Assembly: GCA_943328915.2 (NCBI GenBank)
Contig: CALQBW020000003.1
Coordinates: forward strand, 1-64,000
Direction: 5' to 3'
Source: Singulisphaera sp. GP187
GTDB taxonomy: Bacteria > Chloroflexota > Chloroflexia > Chloroflexales > Roseiflexaceae
DNA: 64,000 nt
Under the pieces are notes generated by a model. That model searched no databases and was not told the origin of the DNA. It saw only the letters and a program-made list of their open reading frames with translations. The translations under genes were made by a program, and so were the position numbers. This document shows, one piece after another, positions 7,456 through 21,580 of the stretch (positions are counted from its first letter, which is position 1; the number at the start of each line of letters is the position of its first letter).

Positions 7456-8214
7456 ATGACGACAGATGATTGGTTTGTAGGAAGTGCCAGCAAACGCATT
7501 GGGTCACGCGCGTGGGTACATGCCATAGGGTTCCGCAGTGAACGTGCGCTCCTCGCCCTCGTGGCGTGTGATATTGACGATGTGGCGACCATTGACTTGA
7601 CGGCGATTACCGCTCATCTTTCGCTTCACCCCATCGAAACGGTCGAAGTGCTTTTGGTGGCAAGTGGGATTCAAGACGCAATAGGCTACCGCTCCATCAC
7701 GCCAAACGCTCAACATCAGGTCATCCATGCGATGGTTGATGCCATTGTTGATGCCTTGACATTTGGCTGCCCCGCCACCATCCGGGTGACACCTCATGCC
7801 TTGCAGTGGCGAAAATTCGACGAACACCCGATTGCCACGTTGACGCTGCACCCGCAGCCACAACAGATTGACACCACGCTACATCAGCAACTTACCCGTG
7901 ATTGTGGGGAACCGGTCTTGATAATGCGCACTGCATCGCTTACCAATGGGTGGGACACCACTGCTATTGCCGCACAACTCACTGCATGTAGTGCCATACC
8001 GGTCTCCACCGTCACCTGGCGTCATCAAGACAATTGTTGGGTGCTCTGTTTCAATCAAACTCCCCTTGCGATTATTCCCGGCACGCTTGCGTCGACGCCT
8101 GACTGGCCGCACCACGTGGTTGCGAGTCGACCACACTACGCACTCACCGCAAACCAATCCGCATCGACTCGTCGTTTTTTGCAAGAGGCGCATCGCGATG
8201 TCAACCACGATTGA
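7456..8214 (+). CDS. Hypothetical protein, possibly ceramidase-N-domain-like
   Basis: I do not recognise this 252-residue protein with confidence. The N-terminal pattern (FVGSASKRIG, then a segment like ALLALVACDIDD and a hydrophobic VEVLLVASG strand) faintly recalls the N-terminal domain of neutral/alkaline ceramidase-like hydrolases, but the histidine-rich catalytic THTHSGP motif of that family is absent. No signal peptide or membrane segment is evident. It starts 21 bases after the GH4 gene with an AAAGG site, and its 3' end overlaps tag by 17 bases, so translation is probably coupled to both neighbours. A role alongside the glycosidase is an inference from position only. Confidence 0.7.
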   Translation: MTTDDWFVGSASKRIGSRAWVHAIGFRSERALLALVACDIDDVATIDLTAITAHLSLHPIETVEVLLVASGIQDAIGYRSITPNAQHQVIHAMVDAIVDALTFGCPATIRVTPHALQWRKFDEHPIATLTLHPQPQQIDTTLHQQLTRDCGEPVLIMRTASLTNGWDTTAIAAQLTACSAIPVSTVTWRHQDNCWVLCFNQTPLAIIPGTLASTPDWPHHVVASRPHYALTANQSASTRRFLQEAHRDVNHD

Positions 8215-8776
8215 GCGTTGTCCATGGTGCGGCAGTGATCCGCTCTATTGTGACTATCACGACAACGAATGGGGAGCACCGTTGCACAGCATCTATGGCT
8301 GGTATGAACGTATCGTGCTCGAAACGATGCAGGCTGGCTTGAGTTGGATTACCGTTTTGCGCAAACGTACCCATTACCGAGCCGTCTGCCACCAATTTGA
8401 TCCACACATCGTCGCAACCTATGGCGAAGCCGACATCATGCGCCTGATGGCCGACCCAGGGATTATTCGCAATCGTGCCAAAATCAGCGCCATGATCCAC
8501 AATGCGCAGATGTTTTTGACGTTACAGGCAAAAACAGGCAGCGTCGATGATTATTTCTGGCGCTATGTCGAAGGTCGCCCGTTGCAACCGCATCGCCAGC
8601 ACCATAGCGAAATCCCAGCAATCACCCCACTCGCTAGCCAAATAGCTCAGGATTTACGCATGCGTGGTTTTAAATTCATTGGACCAACCATGTGTTATGC
8701 CTTGATGCAAGCCACAGGATTGGTCAATGATCATCTTGTCAGCTGTCATCGCCATTCGGCGTTACGCGACCGATGA
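8198..8776 (+). CDS. tag: DNA-3-methyladenine glycosylase I
   Basis: Tag removes 3-methyladenine from alkylated DNA as the first step of base-excision repair. The 192 residues match the family length. The N-terminus ERCPWCGSDPLYCDYHDNEW aligns with the E. coli start, giving zinc ligands Cys8 and His21; the C-terminal HLVSC supplies the second His/Cys pair. The GLSWITVLRKR segment is also typical. The frame runs far upstream, but the ATG at 8198 with AGAGG 9 bases before it gives the family start and overlaps the upstream gene by 17 bases. Its stop overlaps the helicase start (ATGA), so the two repair proteins are translationally coupled. Confidence 0.95.
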   Translation: MSTTIERCPWCGSDPLYCDYHDNEWGAPLHSIYGWYERIVLETMQAGLSWITVLRKRTHYRAVCHQFDPHIVATYGEADIMRLMADPGIIRNRAKISAMIHNAQMFLTLQAKTGSVDDYFWRYVEGRPLQPHRQHHSEIPAITPLASQIAQDLRMRGFKFIGPTMCYALMQATGLVNDHLVSCHRHSALRDR

Positions 8777-14204: not shown

Positions 14205-15368
14205 CTACGCCAACACCCGCGCCTCACAAAAAAACTGCGCTAAAGGCGGCGGTAATAATTCCGCAAAGCGGGTTTTTTGCCCCACCGTATGCCCAACGAG
14301 GGGCATCAAGCGCGCCGTGAGTGGTTTTTTCAAGGCCGTCGCCAACGTGGTCACCTCGCGGTAAATACCGGCCAGCACGGCGGTGTCGACATCTCCCGCC
14401 AACGGGATGGTATCGAGTCCGGTGCCACACACCGCACTAAACGCCAACAAATCACGCAAAGTATAGCGGCCATCCAGCGCCCGTTGTGCCAACGTCGCAT
14501 CTTCGACCACAGGCAACATAATGCCCGAAAACCCCAGCTGGGTCACGGCACAGCCACGAATCGTCGCCGTCAAGGCCCGCACCGCCGCCATCGTGCCCCA
14601 ATCGCCAAACAGCACGCCAGACAACGCCTCAATGGCGGCAGCAATACTGCGCTCGGGGTGGGGATGGGGTGCCAGCGACCAATCGCAGCCGGCATAATTA
14701 ATCCCGTACTGGGCACAAATCGGTTGTGCGATGGCCCGCAAGCGCGCATCATGCGTCACAATCTCGCGGGCTAGGGCCGCCAAAGCGGCCGCCACCAACA
14801 CCGGGCGGTCGGGGTGAGCGAGTGGTACGTCGACCAAAGGTCGCGTCACTTGCCACGCCAAGGCCGCCGCTTCAGGACCAATCGCCAGCCACGATGCGCC
14901 ACCGTCATGCCACGAGGCCGGGAAGAACGGGCTCCCCGCCGGGACCATCGCCAAAGCCGCCACCCGCAAATTCCCCACCCCACCCGGCACTTTGCGCGCC
15001 AAGTCATGCGTCATCTGCGCCATCAATTGCACCACCGCGTCATCGATTTGGCCATTGGCAGTCAGACTGACGCTGGCAAATACCGCTTGCGTAGCCGCCA
15101 TGGCATCGGCCAACTGCCCCAAACGGTCGCGAGGCACAATCCCCAACGTGGCATAATCGAAGCCGTCGTCGAGGGCTCGGTCTTCGATTCCCGTGGCCAC
15201 ACTCACCAAATCGGCACAACTATTAAACCCATTCATGGTGGGAGTACACCGCAAGGTTTGTACTGCATAGCCAGCGTCACTGAGTTGCTGGCGGAGGGCA
15301 TGCGCGGCCTGTGCCCCACGTCCCAAATCACTTTCACGCGCCCCAATAGTAATTGTGCGTAATTCCAT
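14205..15368 (-). CDS. UPF0210 / DUF711 family protein
   Basis: This 387-residue protein belongs to the uncharacterised UPF0210 (DUF711, PFL-like) family. Recognisable conserved stretches are the N-terminal ITIGARESDL, GDWGTMAAVRA, LGFSGIMLPVVED, and AFSAVCGTGLDTIPLAGD. Members elsewhere are commonly paired with a small ACT-domain protein; none is seen here. I start it at the ATG at 15368 (MELRTI) because the family begins there; the open frame extends 19 codons upstream into azlD. It is the last gene of the minus-strand set alaX-like / methyltransferase / azlC / aminotransferase / azlD. Function unknown; amino-acid related by context only. Confidence 0.88.
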   Translation of the reverse strand: MELRTITIGARESDLGRGAQAAHALRQQLSDAGYAVQTLRCTPTMNGFNSCADLVSVATGIEDRALDDGFDYATLGIVPRDRLGQLADAMAATQAVFASVSLTANGQIDDAVVQLMAQMTHDLARKVPGGVGNLRVAALAMVPAGSPFFPASWHDGGASWLAIGPEAAALAWQVTRPLVDVPLAHPDRPVLVAAALAALAREIVTHDARLRAIAQPICAQYGINYAGCDWSLAPHPHPERSIAAAIEALSGVLFGDWGTMAAVRALTATIRGCAVTQLGFSGIMLPVVEDATLAQRALDGRYTLRDLLAFSAVCGTGLDTIPLAGDVDTAVLAGIYREVTTLATALKKPLTARLMPLVGHTVGQKTRFAELLPPPLAQFFCEARVLA

Positions 15369-15414
15369 GGTTTTCTCTTTATAAAAATTGGCGCCCAGAC
15401 ACTGCTGTTTGTGC

Positions 15415-15732
15415 TTAGCCAACAACCAAACGGATCAACCAAAACGCTGCCATACCCAACCCCACCGTCACAATGGCGTTTTCGGTCCGCCACGCGACCA
15501 GGGCGCCCACCACTGCGGCGCCCACCGCCGGTCCCAACTGTAGCACCCGACCATGGTCGCCCATTTGGGTGACCACGGCGGGGACAATCAAGGCCGTAAA
15601 CACCGCCGGCGGCACATATTTCAACCACAACGCCAGCCACGCAGGTGGATCATTGCGCAACAATAGCAAGGGAATCGCCCGGGCGGCATAGGTCACCGCC
15701 GCCATCCCCGCATAGGTCAACCAAATCGACAT
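15415..15732 (-). CDS. azlD: AzlD-type branched-chain amino acid exporter subunit
   Basis: AzlD is the small membrane partner of AzlC in the LIV-E type exporter for branched-chain amino acids. This 105-residue protein has about four hydrophobic helices, and the family pattern YAARAIPLLLL followed by LKYVPPAVFTALIVP is clear. GGGGAAG precedes the ATG. Unusually, it is separated from azlC by an aminotransferase gene rather than following azlC directly. Substrate assignment rests on the family. Confidence 0.9.
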   Translation of the reverse strand: MSIWLTYAGMAAVTYAARAIPLLLLRNDPPAWLALWLKYVPPAVFTALIVPAVVTQMGDHGRVLQLGPAVGAAVVGALVAWRTENAIVTVGLGMAAFWLIRLVVG

Positions 15733-15747
15733 CTATCGCTTCCCCTC

Positions 15748-16863
15748 TCACAGTTGCTTTAGGAATGCCTCAAACCGCACCAAGCCCTGATCGAAGTCGG
15801 CTTTGCCAAAGCCTACCCGGAAGTAATTCCCCGGGTAGCCATAGACACTCGCCGGCAAAATCAACACCCCGGCCTGCGCCGCCATTTCTTCGGCAATCTG
15901 GGCAATCGGTTTGGCGTGATGAATCTGGGCAAATGCCACACTCCCCGCCCGTGGCGACACCATTTGCAATTTCTCGGGCATGCGTAGACACACCTCTTGG
16001 AACAACTGCAGATTGCGCAACACGATCGCCCGGCTCCGAATCAACATCCGTTGTGACGCCCGCAGGGCAATCAATGCCAACACCTCGGAGGGAGCCGAAT
16101 TGCAAATCGTGGTGTAGTCTTTGTAGGCCAGCAGTTTTTGCCGCAGCACTGCGTCACGCACCACCAACCAGCCAATCCGTAACCCCGCCAGCCCAAAGGC
16201 CTTGGACATCACTCCCAGGCTCAACGCCGACGGTGATAATTCACAGGCTGCCGGCAAACGGTCGCTGGGGTTGTACTCCAGCATGCGGTAGACTTCGTCG
16301 GCAAACAATACCGCTCCTGCCTCGTGCGCCATTGCCACCACTGCCCGCCAATCGTCGTGGCTCATCAACGCTCCCGTGGGATTATGCGGCGTATTGAGCA
16401 AAATCAACTTGGTGTTGGGGCGGATTGCCCGGCGCAATTCATCGACATCGAGGCGCCATTCTTGTTCGGGCCGGAGCTCAATCAAGGTCACGTCGGCACC
16501 CGTCGCCCGCCCTACTTCATACAGCGATTGGTAGCCGGGCCAGGTGGTAATCATATGATCGCCAGGGCCCAGCAACACATTGGCGGTGATAAACACGGCT
16601 TCTTCGGCGCCAGCAAAGGTAATCACCTCGTCCGGGTCAATCCCGTCATAGAGTTGCGCGATCGCAGTCCTCAAGGCAGGCAAGCCGTTGGTCTCGGTAT
16701 AGCCGAGGGTCAATGATTGCCAGCGTTGCAGGGCATCGTCGTCGGCCAGTGCCAACAAATCGTGCATCGCCATCCCTTGGATGTCAGAGCTACACAAAAT
16801 ATAGGGCGTGCTAAACTCGTAACGCGCAAAAAAACGCTCGAGCGTAAACTCAGGAATTTTCAT
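15748..16863 (-). CDS. PLP-dependent class I/II aminotransferase
   Basis: This fold-type I aminotransferase has 371 residues. It shows the Asn of NTPHNPTGALM, the Asp-x-x-Tyr pair in FADEVYRML, the PLP lysine in SLGVMSKAFGLAGLRIGW, and a C-terminal arginine in NYFRVGFGK. The specific substrate cannot be read from the sequence. The gene lies between azlC and azlD and its start overlaps the end of azlC by 14 bases, with AAGGAG 8 bases before the ATG. That position suggests a branched-chain or related amino acid as substrate, feeding or balancing the exporter. This context-based substrate is inference. Confidence 0.92.
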   Translation of the reverse strand: MKIPEFTLERFFARYEFSTPYILCSSDIQGMAMHDLLALADDDALQRWQSLTLGYTETNGLPALRTAIAQLYDGIDPDEVITFAGAEEAVFITANVLLGPGDHMITTWPGYQSLYEVGRATGADVTLIELRPEQEWRLDVDELRRAIRPNTKLILLNTPHNPTGALMSHDDWRAVVAMAHEAGAVLFADEVYRMLEYNPSDRLPAACELSPSALSLGVMSKAFGLAGLRIGWLVVRDAVLRQKLLAYKDYTTICNSAPSEVLALIALRASQRMLIRSRAIVLRNLQLFQEVCLRMPEKLQMVSPRAGSVAFAQIHHAKPIAQIAEEMAAQAGVLILPASVYGYPGNYFRVGFGKADFDQGLVRFEAFLKQL

Positions 16864-17566
16864 TAATGGGCTCCTTTGGTGCTAATTGTTGGCGCTGTGC
16901 CAGCCATGCTCCTACGGCGCTCGCCAAAATCCCGGCGGTCAATACATACCAGCTTCCCGGCAATACCAGCGCCGTGGCTACCGAAATAATCGCCGCGAGT
17001 AGCGCCAACACCAAGTTCACGCGGTCACGCAACATCGGCACTGTAAAGGCGATAAAAGTCAATGGGAAGATTAAATCAAGCCCCAGCGCGGCCGGGTTGG
17101 GAATCAACGCCCCCAACAAACTGCCAATGATGGTGCTGGTCGCCCACACAAAATAAAGACTCAAATTCGATCCCAATTGGAACCAGGCATCGCCGCCATG
17201 CTGGGTGAATCGTTGCACCCCCACAGCATAGGTTTCGTCGGTCAATTGAAAGGCCACCAGTGCCCGCAACCACGTGGGCGACTTGCGGATGTACGAGGCC
17301 GTCGACGCTGCCAGCAACAAATGGCGCGCATTGATGATAGCCGTGGTCGCAATGATACTAAAGGGGTGCGCGCCACTACCAAACATTCCGACGGCGGTAA
17401 ATTGCGAGGCGCCGGCAAAGACGATAAGCGACATCCCCAGCGTTTCCCAGAAACTTAGTCCTGCTGACAAGGCGCTGACGGCATAAACCATCCCAAACGG
17501 CGCCACGCCCGGCCAGACCACCAGTGTCGCCAAAAAACCTTGTCGGATCGTGGCCCAGCGACTCAT
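16850..17566 (-). CDS. azlC: AzlC-type branched-chain amino acid exporter subunit
   Basis: AzlC is the large membrane subunit of the LIV-E exporter. The 238 residues contain about seven hydrophobic segments and the family blocks GVAPFGMVYAVSA, VFAGASQFTAVG, and INARHLLLAAS, plus FQLTDETYAV. The start overlaps the methyltransferase stop (ATGA) with GGGGTG upstream, and its 3' end overlaps the aminotransferase start by 14 bases. These overlaps indicate one transcript. The partner azlD lies one gene further on. Confidence 0.93.
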   Translation of the reverse strand: MSRWATIRQGFLATLVVWPGVAPFGMVYAVSALSAGLSFWETLGMSLIVFAGASQFTAVGMFGSGAHPFSIIATTAIINARHLLLAASTASYIRKSPTWLRALVAFQLTDETYAVGVQRFTQHGGDAWFQLGSNLSLYFVWATSTIIGSLLGALIPNPAALGLDLIFPLTFIAFTVPMLRDRVNLVLALLAAIISVATALVLPGSWYVLTAGILASAVGAWLAQRQQLAPKEPINENS

Positions 17567-18330
17567 GCCCGCACCCCTTCGATCAAGGCGACAGCGATAT
17601 GAAAGCTACCGTCGGCCTCAATCCCCAAAATATCGCGCACATGCGCCGGCGCATTGGCCATCAAGCGTTGCAGCTGAGCCACTTCTGGTGCGGGTGTCGC
17701 CATCCGCGTCACCCACGTCGTAAACTCAAGGCGCACCGACCAGGTTTGCACGTGGCGGGCTGGTAACCCGGTCGCGCCACACATGTCTAGCCATTGCGCC
17801 ACGCTGTGGTCACGTACATGCGAGGGGTCGCGCAAAATTTCCACTGTATTCAAATAGGTATCGGCCATCGGTTCAGGGGGCGATACCACATCGACCAACA
17901 ACCAGCGCCCACCCGGTACCAACACCCGCTGTATCTCGCGCAGTGCCTGGAGCGGGTCAGCGAAATGATGGGCTGCATAGCGTGACACCGCCACATCAAA
18001 CGAGTCATCAGCAAAGGGCAATGCCGCCACATCGGCTTTTTGGATGGTCACATTGTGCAAGCCCCGTTTTTCGACCTGCGCCTGAGTCTGGTCAAGCATG
18101 GCCTGCGTCAAATCGACCGCCGTCAAATGCAAGGCCTGGGCCGCCAAACCGATGGTGACATGCCCTGCTCCACACCCCACGTCAAGTACCCGTTCGCGCC
18201 CTGTCAAGCCGGCTGCCGCCAGCAAACCTTGCAGATCGGCGCCACTGGCATGCACGGTGCTGGTAGTGTAATTTGCGGCGACCGCCCCAAATTGCTGTTG
18301 AATGGATTGATTTACCGATGCATCGCTCAT
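17563..18330 (-). CDS. Class I SAM-dependent methyltransferase
   Basis: This 255-residue protein is a UbiE/COQ5-like class I methyltransferase. The SAM-binding motif I is VLDVGCGAGHVTIGLA, followed by the acidic post-I residue VDLTQAM and motif IV-like FDVAVSRYAAHHFADP. The methyl acceptor is unknown; closeness to the MenG/UbiE type does not fix it. Both ends overlap neighbours by ATGA (AlaX-like upstream, azlC downstream), so it belongs to the amino-acid operon, where methylation of an amino acid or keto acid is conceivable but unproven. Confidence 0.88.
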   Translation of the reverse strand: MSDASVNQSIQQQFGAVAANYTTSTVHASGADLQGLLAAAGLTGRERVLDVGCGAGHVTIGLAAQALHLTAVDLTQAMLDQTQAQVEKRGLHNVTIQKADVAALPFADDSFDVAVSRYAAHHFADPLQALREIQRVLVPGGRWLLVDVVSPPEPMADTYLNTVEILRDPSHVRDHSVAQWLDMCGATGLPARHVQTWSVRLEFTTWVTRMATPAPEVAQLQRLMANAPAHVRDILGIEADGSFHIAVALIEGVRA

Positions 18331-19046
18331 GGGTGCAACCCAATGATGATCCGCTTGTTGGTCGCCCCTTTGCTCCGCGTTTTGAGCAAATCGACCCGCC
18401 CTACTTCACCCGTATGTGCCACATGCGTCCCGCCATCGGCTTGCAAGTCGAGCCCCACAATGTTGACAGTGCGCACTTCGCTAATACCCTCGGGCAACAG
18501 GCTGATTTTGGTGCGAATCAAATCAGGGATGGCAAAGGCTTCGTCACGGGGCAAAATATTGACCTGAATTGGCCGATTGGCTACGATTTCGAGGTTGACT
18601 TTTTCCACAATCGCTTGTGCTAATTCATTACTAAAGTCAGCAATTTCGAAATCAAGTCGCCCTTCATCGAGATCCATGTTGCCACCAGTGACAAAGGCAC
18701 CATAATCACGGAACACCACACCACACAGCAAATGTAAGGCTGTGTGGGTGCGCATCAAGCGGTAACGCCGCTCCCAATCAATCACGCAAGTGACGGTGGA
18801 TCCGACGGCTGGTAATTCACCATCACTCAGGATGTGGATGATTCCATCAGCAGATTTTTTGACATCGATAATCTGCCAATTGCTTCCACCCGCACTCATG
18901 GTACCGGTATCGTGTGGTTGGCCACCGCTGGTGGCATAACAAACCGTTTGATCAAGCACCACTCCATGCCCTTCAGTGGCATGAGCAATCACTTTGGCAC
19001 GACATTCACGCAAAAACGCATCGTGATGAAACAACAATATGGTCAT
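18327..19046 (-). CDS. Alanyl-tRNA editing protein AlaX
   Basis: AlaX is a free-standing homologue of the alanyl-tRNA synthetase editing domain and hydrolyses Ser-tRNA-Ala or Gly-tRNA-Ala. The 239 residues correspond to the medium (AlaX-M) type. The zinc-binding HTALH motif is at 101-105, the GGQPHDTG loop at 41-48, and the second half site is DGGTH at 204-208, where the usual ligand is Cys (CGGTH); Asp204 is therefore notable. AAGGAG lies 6 bases before the ATG. It is the first gene of the operon running to the UPF0210 gene. Confidence 0.92.
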   Translation of the reverse strand: MTILLFHHDAFLRECRAKVIAHATEGHGVVLDQTVCYATSGGQPHDTGTMSAGGSNWQIIDVKKSADGIIHILSDGELPAVGSTVTCVIDWERRYRLMRTHTALHLLCGVVFRDYGAFVTGGNMDLDEGRLDFEIADFSNELAQAIVEKVNLEIVANRPIQVNILPRDEAFAIPDLIRTKISLLPEGISEVRTVNIVGLDLQADGGTHVAHTGEVGRVDLLKTRSKGATNKRIIIGLHP

Positions 19047-19185
19047 TACCGCTCCTTCTTTTAACGCACAGTCTATCTATTCTAGCGCATGCACTATATT
19101 CACGAAAAGTATGCTGGATGAGCAGTGATTATGACATGTCGTTTTTTGATGGCGGATTTTCAATTCAAGTACGCCAACCACCAAC

Positions 19186-20385
19186 TTAGCCATCCCGCTG
19201 CCATTGCCAAACCGCAACACTCGATAGCACGTAGGCAATCGCCCCCAAAATCAATAGCGGCGTAAACCCGTAACTGGTCTGCACAAACCCACTCAACGTC
19301 GCCGTAATCGCCCACCCCGCCGCCCATTGCATGTTCCAAACGCTCGAGGCAAACCCCCGTTGCTGGGGATTGACCAGGCGCATCGTCAAGACGTCGTTGA
19401 GCGAAATACTGCTGCCAACCAACAACGCGCGCACAATGAATCCCAATACCGACAACCACAACACCGGCGACAACATCAACAGCAACATCGGCGCCGCCAA
19501 AATTCGAAAACTCCCCGCCCATATCCGCAAACTGCGTTTGCCGATATAGTGGCCCGCCAACACCGCCCCAATCCCGAGTGAAACCCCACTAAATGCCAGA
19601 ATCGTTCCTACTTGGGCATCTGGCAAATGAAATTGCATGCGGAAAAAGAGGCTTTGGAAAGGGAAAAACGTCCCGCTCCCTATCCCCATCAAAAATCCTG
19701 CCATACCGTATTTGAGGATGGTCCAATTACTCAGCACTGCGATGTTGGCGCCATCGGTCAACACCCCATCGGCGTCACGTTCACTTGCCTCTTCAAGGTG
19801 ACCAATCAATGGTAACGTCGACATCCCGAGAATCGCCACCCCAATCAGCAACACCACCCGATAAACCACCGCACTCTGGTCACTTGCCTGCAACCAAGGG
19901 GCTACCACCGTCGGCAACCAGCCCGCCACAATACTCCCGACCAAGCCAATCATGTTGAGCGCGGCTTCATTGAGGCCAAACACTGCGGTTTGTTGGGCAT
20001 GGGGCGTGGTCACGGTTAGCAACGGGAAGAGCGCCGCAAAAAGCAGTGAAAAGGCACAGCCCACCATAAATTGACTCGCAATTAACAACACTTTGGTGGG
20101 GGCAAATATGACACACGACAGCCCCACCACATAAATCAAGACGGCAGCCATCAAGGCCCGCCGGGCTCCGATGCGGTCTATCAGCATCCCTCCGGGAATC
20201 CCTACCACCAAGCCAGCGATGCGTGCTGTAGTCGACAAAATCCCTGCGGTATCGGCGGCATACCCAATACTCACGAGATAGAAATTAAACAACACATCAA
20301 AAAAACTCATCCCGAGGCCGATCAGCAGGCTGTGCATGAGGACGCGCCACACGGTGAACGGAATTTTACGCCAAGAATTCATCAT
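19186..20385 (-). CDS. MFS transporter (paralogue of next gene)
   Basis: This is a 12-helix major facilitator superfamily transporter of 399 residues from the ATG at 20385. The signature loop after helix 2 reads GGMLIDRIGARRAL. It is closely similar throughout to the product of the upstream gene (shared blocks RVLMHS, SFFDVLF, TAGILSTTAR, GIP.G), so the two are a tandem duplication. The open frame extends 21 codons further upstream into its neighbour, but AAAGGA upstream of the double ATG supports the chosen start, 7 bases after the neighbour's stop. Substrate unknown. Confidence 0.88.
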   Translation of the reverse strand: MMNSWRKIPFTVWRVLMHSLLIGLGMSFFDVLFNFYLVSIGYAADTAGILSTTARIAGLVVGIPGGMLIDRIGARRALMAAVLIYVVGLSCVIFAPTKVLLIASQFMVGCAFSLLFAALFPLLTVTTPHAQQTAVFGLNEAALNMIGLVGSIVAGWLPTVVAPWLQASDQSAVVYRVVLLIGVAILGMSTLPLIGHLEEASERDADGVLTDGANIAVLSNWTILKYGMAGFLMGIGSGTFFPFQSLFFRMQFHLPDAQVGTILAFSGVSLGIGAVLAGHYIGKRSLRIWAGSFRILAAPMLLLMLSPVLWLSVLGFIVRALLVGSSISLNDVLTMRLVNPQQRGFASSVWNMQWAAGWAITATLSGFVQTSYGFTPLLILGAIAYVLSSVAVWQWQRDG

Positions 20386-20392
20386 CAGGTAC

Positions 20393-21580
20393 TTAATCCT
20401 TTGTAAAGATCCAAATTGCCAAACCCGACAACACGTACGCCACCGCACTAAACATGATCAAAGGGGCAAAACCGTATCCTTTTTGCACAAAGCCACTCAG
20501 TGTTGCCGCAATCCCCCATCCGGCAGACCAAAACACCGTCATCAGGCTCGCTACTCGCCCGCGTTGGCGGGCATTGACCAAATGCATCGAAAGCACATCA
20601 TTGAGCGCAAAACTCCCACCCATCAAAAAACTCCGTCCGAAATATCCAACTAATGCAAATGGCAAAATCGGTATCATCAAACAGGCAAAAATTGGTGCCG
20701 TCACAAGGCGCAATGCCCCAGCCCAATGGCGCAGATTTCGTTGACCAAGCCAACGCCCTGCCAGTAATGCACCGACACCAATCAATACTTCGCCAATTGC
20801 AATAATGACACCCACGTCGTGGTCGGCCATCCCGAGTTGGGTACGGAAATACAAACTTTGGAATGGCAAAAAAGTACCGCCGCCCATCCCCACAAATAAA
20901 CTTGCGACAGCGTACCCGACTACCTTTCGGCGTGATTTGGTTGGCACATCGTTATCGTGCGCTTCGGCGGCATCATCATGCGCACTACTCGTCTGTATCA
21001 CCGTGATAATCGGTGTCACCGCAATGAAAATAATCGCTACCCCGACCAACAGCGCTAATCGATACGCTAAGGCATCTTGCGCATTCACATGCACCCACGG
21101 TGCCAGCACACTCGGCAGCCACCCAGCAATTACACTCCCGATCAAACCAAAGCTGATAGAGGCTTCGTTGAGACCAAACACCAGTGGGCGTTGGTCGGGG
21201 GGGGTAGCAGTCGTCAACATTGGCATCGTCGCCGTCATAGCTAATGACACAAAACAACCTGCCACAAATTGGCTGATAATCAACCAGGTAATCGTGGGCG
21301 CAAATAAAAGCCAGGTCATCATGATGGCATACCCAGCCACCCCAATCACCAATGCCCGTCGAGGACCGATCCGGTCAACAAATATCCCCGTAGGTATGCC
21401 TATGATGAGGCCTGCCAACCGCGCCGTGGTCGACAAAATACCTGCCGTTTCGCTGCCAAAACCCATACTGACAAGATAAAAAGTAAATAACACGTCAAAA
21501 AAGCTAATACCCAGCCCAAACAACACACTATGCATTAACACGCGCCATGCCGACCATGGAATCGCTCGGTATGCCTTCAC
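20393..21580 (-). CDS. MFS transporter (tandem paralogue)
   Basis: This 395-residue major facilitator transporter shares its architecture and many sequence blocks with the gene directly downstream. The loop after helix 2 is GIFVDRIGPRRAL. A cytoplasmic loop between helices 6 and 7 is rich in Asp, His and Ala (SSAHDDAAEAHDNDVP). It starts at GTG (21578-21580) with AAGGG 8 bases upstream; no suitable ATG is nearby. The region upstream is shared with a divergent EamA gene. Substrate unknown; drug or metabolite efflux is the usual family role. Confidence 0.88.
   Translation of the reverse strand: MKAYRAIPWSAWRVLMHSVLFGLGISFFDVLFTFYLVSMGFGSETAGILSTTARLAGLIIGIPTGIFVDRIGPRRALVIGVAGYAIMMTWLLFAPTITWLIISQFVAGCFVSLAMTATMPMLTTATPPDQRPLVFGLNEASISFGLIGSVIAGWLPSVLAPWVHVNAQDALAYRLALLVGVAIIFIAVTPIITVIQTSSAHDDAAEAHDNDVPTKSRRKVVGYAVASLFVGMGGGTFLPFQSLYFRTQLGMADHDVGVIIAIGEVLIGVGALLAGRWLGQRNLRHWAGALRLVTAPIFACLMIPILPFALVGYFGRSFLMGGSFALNDVLSMHLVNARQRGRVASLMTVFWSAGWGIAATLSGFVQKGYGFAPLIMFSAVAYVLSGLAIWIFTKD

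Follow-up and report, generated by a model that had tools for sequence, protein, structure and literature searches.

Streptomyces cattleya provides a known case of a free-standing aminoacyl-tRNA deacylase whose gene accompanies that of an amino-acid transporter: FthB is a fluorothreonyl-tRNA deacylase and FthC a 4-fluorothreonine transporter. In the AzlBCD system of Bacillus subtilis, AzlC and AzlD form a bipartite exporter of amino acids that serves against toxic ones and is credited with export of or tolerance to azaleucine, histidine, asparagine and diaminopropionate, but not serine. Members of the AlaX family hydrolyse Ser-tRNA-Ala and Gly-tRNA-Ala. Genes for an AlaX protein and an AzlCD exporter occur together in the 2.9-Mb draft genome of a lake bacterium of the Chloroflexota, within the window analysed here (64,000 nucleotides, positions 1 to 64,000 of contig CALQBW020000003.1): six open reading frames (ORFs) on the minus strand at 14205-19046 were confirmed to encode, in reading order, AlaX, a methyltransferase, AzlC, a fold-type-I pyridoxal 5′-phosphate (PLP) enzyme, AzlD and a UPF0210/DUF711 protein.

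The likeness to the described systems is partial. FthB is related to ProXp-ST1 rather than to AlaX and is part of a 4-fluorothreonine locus, whereas no such biosynthetic locus was seen at the window operon. Compared with AzlBCD of B. subtilis, the window operon has no AzlB-like regulator among its six genes, has a PLP enzyme gene between the exporter subunit genes, and has a tRNA-editing gene added. A literature search found no paper combining AlaX with azlC, nor one combining an alanyl-tRNA editing protein, an aminotransferase and a gene cluster; all of the parts are already known, and it is their combination and the exchangeable PLP partner that were not found described in the literature searched.

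Conservation and recurrence of the linked genes

There is about an even chance that the six genes form an operon in which amino-acid overflow is combined with quality control of translation, its parts probably cooperating to prevent a harmful or surplus amino acid from entering proteins. Behind this reading stand the gene set itself, the fact that it is conserved, and the repeated occurrence of PLP aminotransferases with AlaX and of PLP-dependent amino-acid enzymes with AzlCD. The trigger would be an excess over alanine of an amino acid that competes for tRNA-Ala, such as serine, glycine or a small analogue. The PLP enzyme would convert the competing amino acid or its partner in amino-group exchange; AzlCD, predicted from its family to be a broad amino-acid exporter, would export the surplus; and AlaX, predicted from its family to hydrolyse Ser-tRNA-Ala and Gly-tRNA-Ala, would clear tRNA-Ala that had already been mischarged. 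Which amino acid might be handled is a guess, as is the idea that the methyltransferase may act on the same compound.

Eight further genomes of the genus (G001, G002, G004, G005, G007, G008, G009 and G010) keep the complete gene order, their proteins being as little as about 72% identical, and the same operon was found in an uncultured Roseiflexaceae bacterium of the Chloroflexota (L127). An earlier note on this DNA, which had staked its interpretation on the order being kept in some relative, is upheld in that respect. In G003 the contig stops inside the PLP enzyme gene. Five genes (those for AlaX, the methyltransferase, AzlC, the PLP enzyme and UPF0210) were searched for in G006, which is 91% complete, and none was found, an absence that fits either loss of the block or an assembly gap. 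All six genes are under purifying selection, with ratios of nonsynonymous to synonymous substitution (dN/dS) well below 1 in comparison with two congeners: across the six genes, the comparison with G010 gives dN 0.16-0.24 and dS 1.2-4.1, the latter partly saturated, and that with G002 gives dN 0.007-0.06 and dS 0.41-0.98.

Beyond the genus, a co-directional fold-type-I aminotransferase gene of two further subfamilies lies within 75 bp of alaX in eight other genera of the class (loci L292, L286, L296, L310, L312, L317, L340 and L382-L384). A LysN/multi-substrate aminotransferase adjoins AlaX in G016, G017, G087/G090, G099, G101 and G103, and an aromatic/aspartate-type aminotransferase in G083 and G088/G094 (a slash joins genomes of the same genus); the nearest solved structures are 3AOV, 1X0M and 2EGY for the G017 enzyme and 1DJU for that of G083. 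The aminotransferase gene precedes alaX in G016 and G017 and follows it in the remaining genomes. These loci are related by descent, and their counts are not counts of independent events. Elsewhere in the phylum, 60 AlaX loci outside the class were inspected, and no aminotransferase flanks any of them. In the window genus, the LysN-type enzyme had no match at E≤1e-90 among the 11 genomes; the different enzyme in the operon of that genus looks like a non-orthologous replacement of one role, which is the strongest evidence for a functional linkage.

A similar exchange is seen between the exporter subunit genes. Roseiflexaceae encode, between azlC and azlD, a PLP enzyme that differs from genus to genus, with three kinds seen: in the window genus an aminotransferase-like PRK07324/GntC-like enzyme, in G020 (L107 1089-3139) a PALP-family enzyme most similar to threonine/serine dehydratases, and in G017 (L207 7635-10192) a group-II PLP decarboxylase. 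Wherever azlC and azlD were both detected at other loci of the Chloroflexota, they adjoin or are at most about 450 bp apart, with no gene of comparable size between them; this control is incomplete in that azlD went undetected at some loci. The deep branches of the AzlC tree are unresolved, and the tree does not decide between a single origin and multiple origins of the split. Since relatives retain the pairing but exchange the converting enzyme for unrelated ones, the parts probably cooperate.

Several relatives have other fragments of the arrangement. AlaX is directly followed by a methyltransferase in a second genus (G017), and in G037 and G055 it neighbours azlCD and is encoded on the other strand. 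One G016 contig starts inside azlD and continues with a small ORF, the aminotransferase gene and alaX, and a second contig carries azlC and the beginning of azlD at its end; we infer that the two join. The order azlC-azlD-PLP enzyme occurs in G083, with phzF next, and in Thermanaerothrix daxensis. In the latter (L139, about 7700-8600), the azlC-matching stretch has stop codons in the frame of the tblastn coordinates, and the gene may start further in or be frameshifted. PhzF-family genes were noted beside azlCD and the PLP enzyme gene in G083 (L225 6003-6791) and near azlCD in G048 (L221 5946-6827). A molybdopterin oxidoreductase-like gene is repeatedly near azlCD in the taxonomic order of the window (L208, L212, L214, L219, L222 and L223), one copy of which (L214) is confirmed by Pfam.

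The gene products and their setting

The alaX gene (18327..19046, minus strand, as are all genes of the locus) encodes a 239-residue alanyl-tRNA trans-editing protein with homology to tRNA_SAD/AlaRS editing domains (PF07973, 38.5 bits) and the length of the AlaXM class; its score with NF040865 (AlaXM) is 263 bits over residues 4-237, below the 300-bit equivalog cut-off of that model. It shares its family and the HxxxH motif with AlaX-M of Pyrococcus horikoshii (2E1B). At the predicted zinc site, H101 and H105 of HxxxH and also H208 are invariant, but the cysteine of CxxxH in the P. horikoshii protein is aspartate (D204, in the sequence QADGGTH) in all 14 aligned Chloroflexota sequences. The next gene (17563..18330) encodes a class I S-adenosylmethionine-dependent methyltransferase of 255 residues, YcgJ-like, with a Methyltransf_11 domain. 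Both exporter subunit families are present, as azlC (16850..17566, large subunit, 238 residues; PF03591, 130.6 bits) and azlD (15415..15732, small subunit, 105 residues; PF05437, 79.5 bits). Relatives of solved structure were found by sequence for AlaX, the methyltransferase, the PLP enzyme and the UPF0210 protein.

The gene between azlC and azlD (15748..16863) encodes a 371-residue fold-type-I PLP enzyme with catalytic Lys221 and an Aminotran_1_2 domain (159.7 bits), which belongs to the same subfamily as GntC enduracididine cyclase (8FFT/8FFU) and Streptococcus suis 3OP7 and aligns end to end with both. Glu9, Ser25 (Ser26 in the window) and the catalytic lysine (Lys219) of GntC are kept; the cyclase residues Ser26 and Thr84 are not, the former being replaced by Asp27 and the latter unmatched. 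The enzyme also misses the equivalog scores for GntC (280 of 415 bits) and VioD (220 of 391 bits), and its identification as an arginine cyclase of the GntC/VioD type was rejected on these grounds. It is equally near to GntC and to an uncharacterised aminotransferase family. The earlier note had called it an aminotransferase, which says too much in view of this equal closeness; neither arginine cyclisation nor simple transamination should be assigned to it from sequence. Among the neighbours of 32 genes for this PLP enzyme from diverse bacteria no consistent partner was found, the commonest being DinB-like, UbiA and dehydrogenase genes.

The last gene (14205..15368) encodes a 387-residue UPF0210/DUF711 protein of the PFL/RNR-type barrel family (PF05167, 199.3 bits against a gathering cut-off of 25) with an invariant Cys314. 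This conserved cysteine and a SLAP motif are shared with SP0239 of Streptococcus pneumoniae (2HA9), which is about 450 residues long compared with about 390 in the window. No ACT-domain partner of UPF0210 (ACT_6, PF13740) was found in the source genome. UPF0210 is common in the class, yet it occurs without the other operon genes outside the window genus. Its standing as a core partner, as the earlier note had proposed, is supported inside the genus only; as a universal partner it was rejected, because other members of the family and class have it by itself and its neighbours vary between families. The proximity of AlaX and UPF0210 in G077 was rejected as an operon, the intervening genes being on the opposite strand. 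UPF0210 is a genus-specific addition to the operon.

The junctions are tight, as had been noticed earlier: alaX and the methyltransferase gene overlap by 4 bp, the methyltransferase gene and azlC by 4 bp, and azlC and the PLP enzyme gene by 14 bp, and azlD follows the PLP enzyme gene after 15 bp. In the ORF list, UPF0210 starts from a TTG at 15425 and overlaps azlD; the ATG at 15368 is more likely the start, as it is preceded by AAAGAG and leaves a gap of 46 bp after azlD. The 139-bp region upstream of alaX (19047..19185, minus strand) is the probable transcript start and contains an AAGGAG ribosome-binding site; no Rfam element was found in it, and a scan of the locus for promoters and terminators found sites no more numerous than in shuffled sequence. 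A major facilitator superfamily (MFS) gene lies upstream of this gap, and the downstream neighbours (histidine kinase, response regulator and galactokinase genes) are convergent; because of this spacing, alaX is likely the first gene of the operon. Two tandem MFS transporter genes, both of the MFS_1 family and on the same strand as alaX, occupy 19186-21580 upstream.

Competing explanations and meaning of the linkage

Several facts weigh against an operon for overflow and quality control. None of the six proteins has a demonstrated substrate, AzlCD of B. subtilis gave no protection from serine, and co-transcription of the six genes is read from their spacing alone. In the window genus the methyltransferase gene and azlC separate alaX from the PLP enzyme gene; outside it, UPF0210 is unlinked to any other member of the operon, and AlaX has no aminotransferase neighbour in class members G032, G037, G038, G055, G072, G077 and G089. 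The genes might instead be loosely clustered, housekeeping genes of amino-acid metabolism placed under one promoter without a shared substrate and kept by common regulation or chance in one genus. The limitation of the full set to one genus agrees with this, as do the separation of the modules in relatives (G017 has AlaX-methyltransferase, AzlCD and UPF0210 on three contigs), the differing neighbours of UPF0210 from family to family and the mostly unrelated genes beside the PLP enzyme elsewhere. The occurrence of AlaX with aminotransferase-type genes of three subfamilies in nine genera (the window genus included) and of three kinds of PLP enzyme between azlC and azlD is, however, hard to explain by inheritance of one arrangement, and loose clustering is considered rather doubtful.

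Another explanation is a small biosynthetic locus with self-protection, in which the PLP enzyme and the methyltransferase, perhaps with UPF0210, would make or finish a non-canonical amino acid, AzlCD would export it and AlaX would clear it from tRNA-Ala, in analogy to the way in which FthB and FthC deal with 4-fluorothreonine in Streptomyces. The candidates for dedicated biosynthetic enzymes beside the deacylase and the transporter are the PLP enzyme and the methyltransferase. A deacylase and a transporter guarding a non-canonical amino acid are a known design, and the nearest characterised relative of the PLP enzyme, GntC, cyclises gamma-hydroxyarginine to enduracididine, with the equivalents of its Glu9 and Ser25 kept. 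The explanation is nevertheless unlikely, given that the arginine-cyclase signature is broken at GntC Ser26 and Thr84, that the operon has no hydroxylase, nonribosomal peptide synthetase or other tailoring gene, and that relatives use ordinary multi-substrate aminotransferases instead. Catabolism of branched-chain or aromatic amino acids with efflux of the excess, AlaX being a passenger, would suit the first naming of AzlCD for azaleucine resistance and the relatives AT2 and AT3, which are multi-substrate, aminoadipate and aromatic aminotransferases; it is highly improbable, as AlaX, of all the members, shows the most constant tie to the aminotransferase, and neither branched-chain nor aromatic amino acids are known AlaX substrates.

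Amino-acid overflow with translation quality control agrees in part with the interpretation of the earlier note: a functional link between AlaX, an amino-acid-converting PLP enzyme and AzlCD gains support from its recurrence with non-orthologous PLP enzymes, but the non-canonical amino acid or keto acid proposed as cargo does not, as AlaX and AzlCD act on ordinary amino acids in characterised systems. A more general principle for the class may be imagined, although it would be surprising if it held in full: a free-standing tRNA-editing factor would be genetically tied to the PLP enzyme and the exporter, whichever they are, that determine the pool of the competing amino acid. The PLP enzyme would be open to free exchange (three subfamilies of aminotransferase accompany AlaX, and three PLP types lie between azlC and azlD), pool control and proofreading would thereby make up a single unit, and in the window genus this unit would also handle a non-protein amino acid.

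Trans-editing factors such as AlaX are usually viewed as stand-alone housekeeping proteins, and the cargo of AzlCD is known from a few suppressor studies. That AlaX is repeatedly linked to PLP enzymes which can replace one another, and in certain genera also to an amino-acid exporter, provides a concrete and testable tie between control of amino-acid pools and fidelity of translation. UPF0210, a family without established function, is placed in an amino-acid context in one genus, and the same linkage offers a route to the natural substrates of AzlCD and AlaX.

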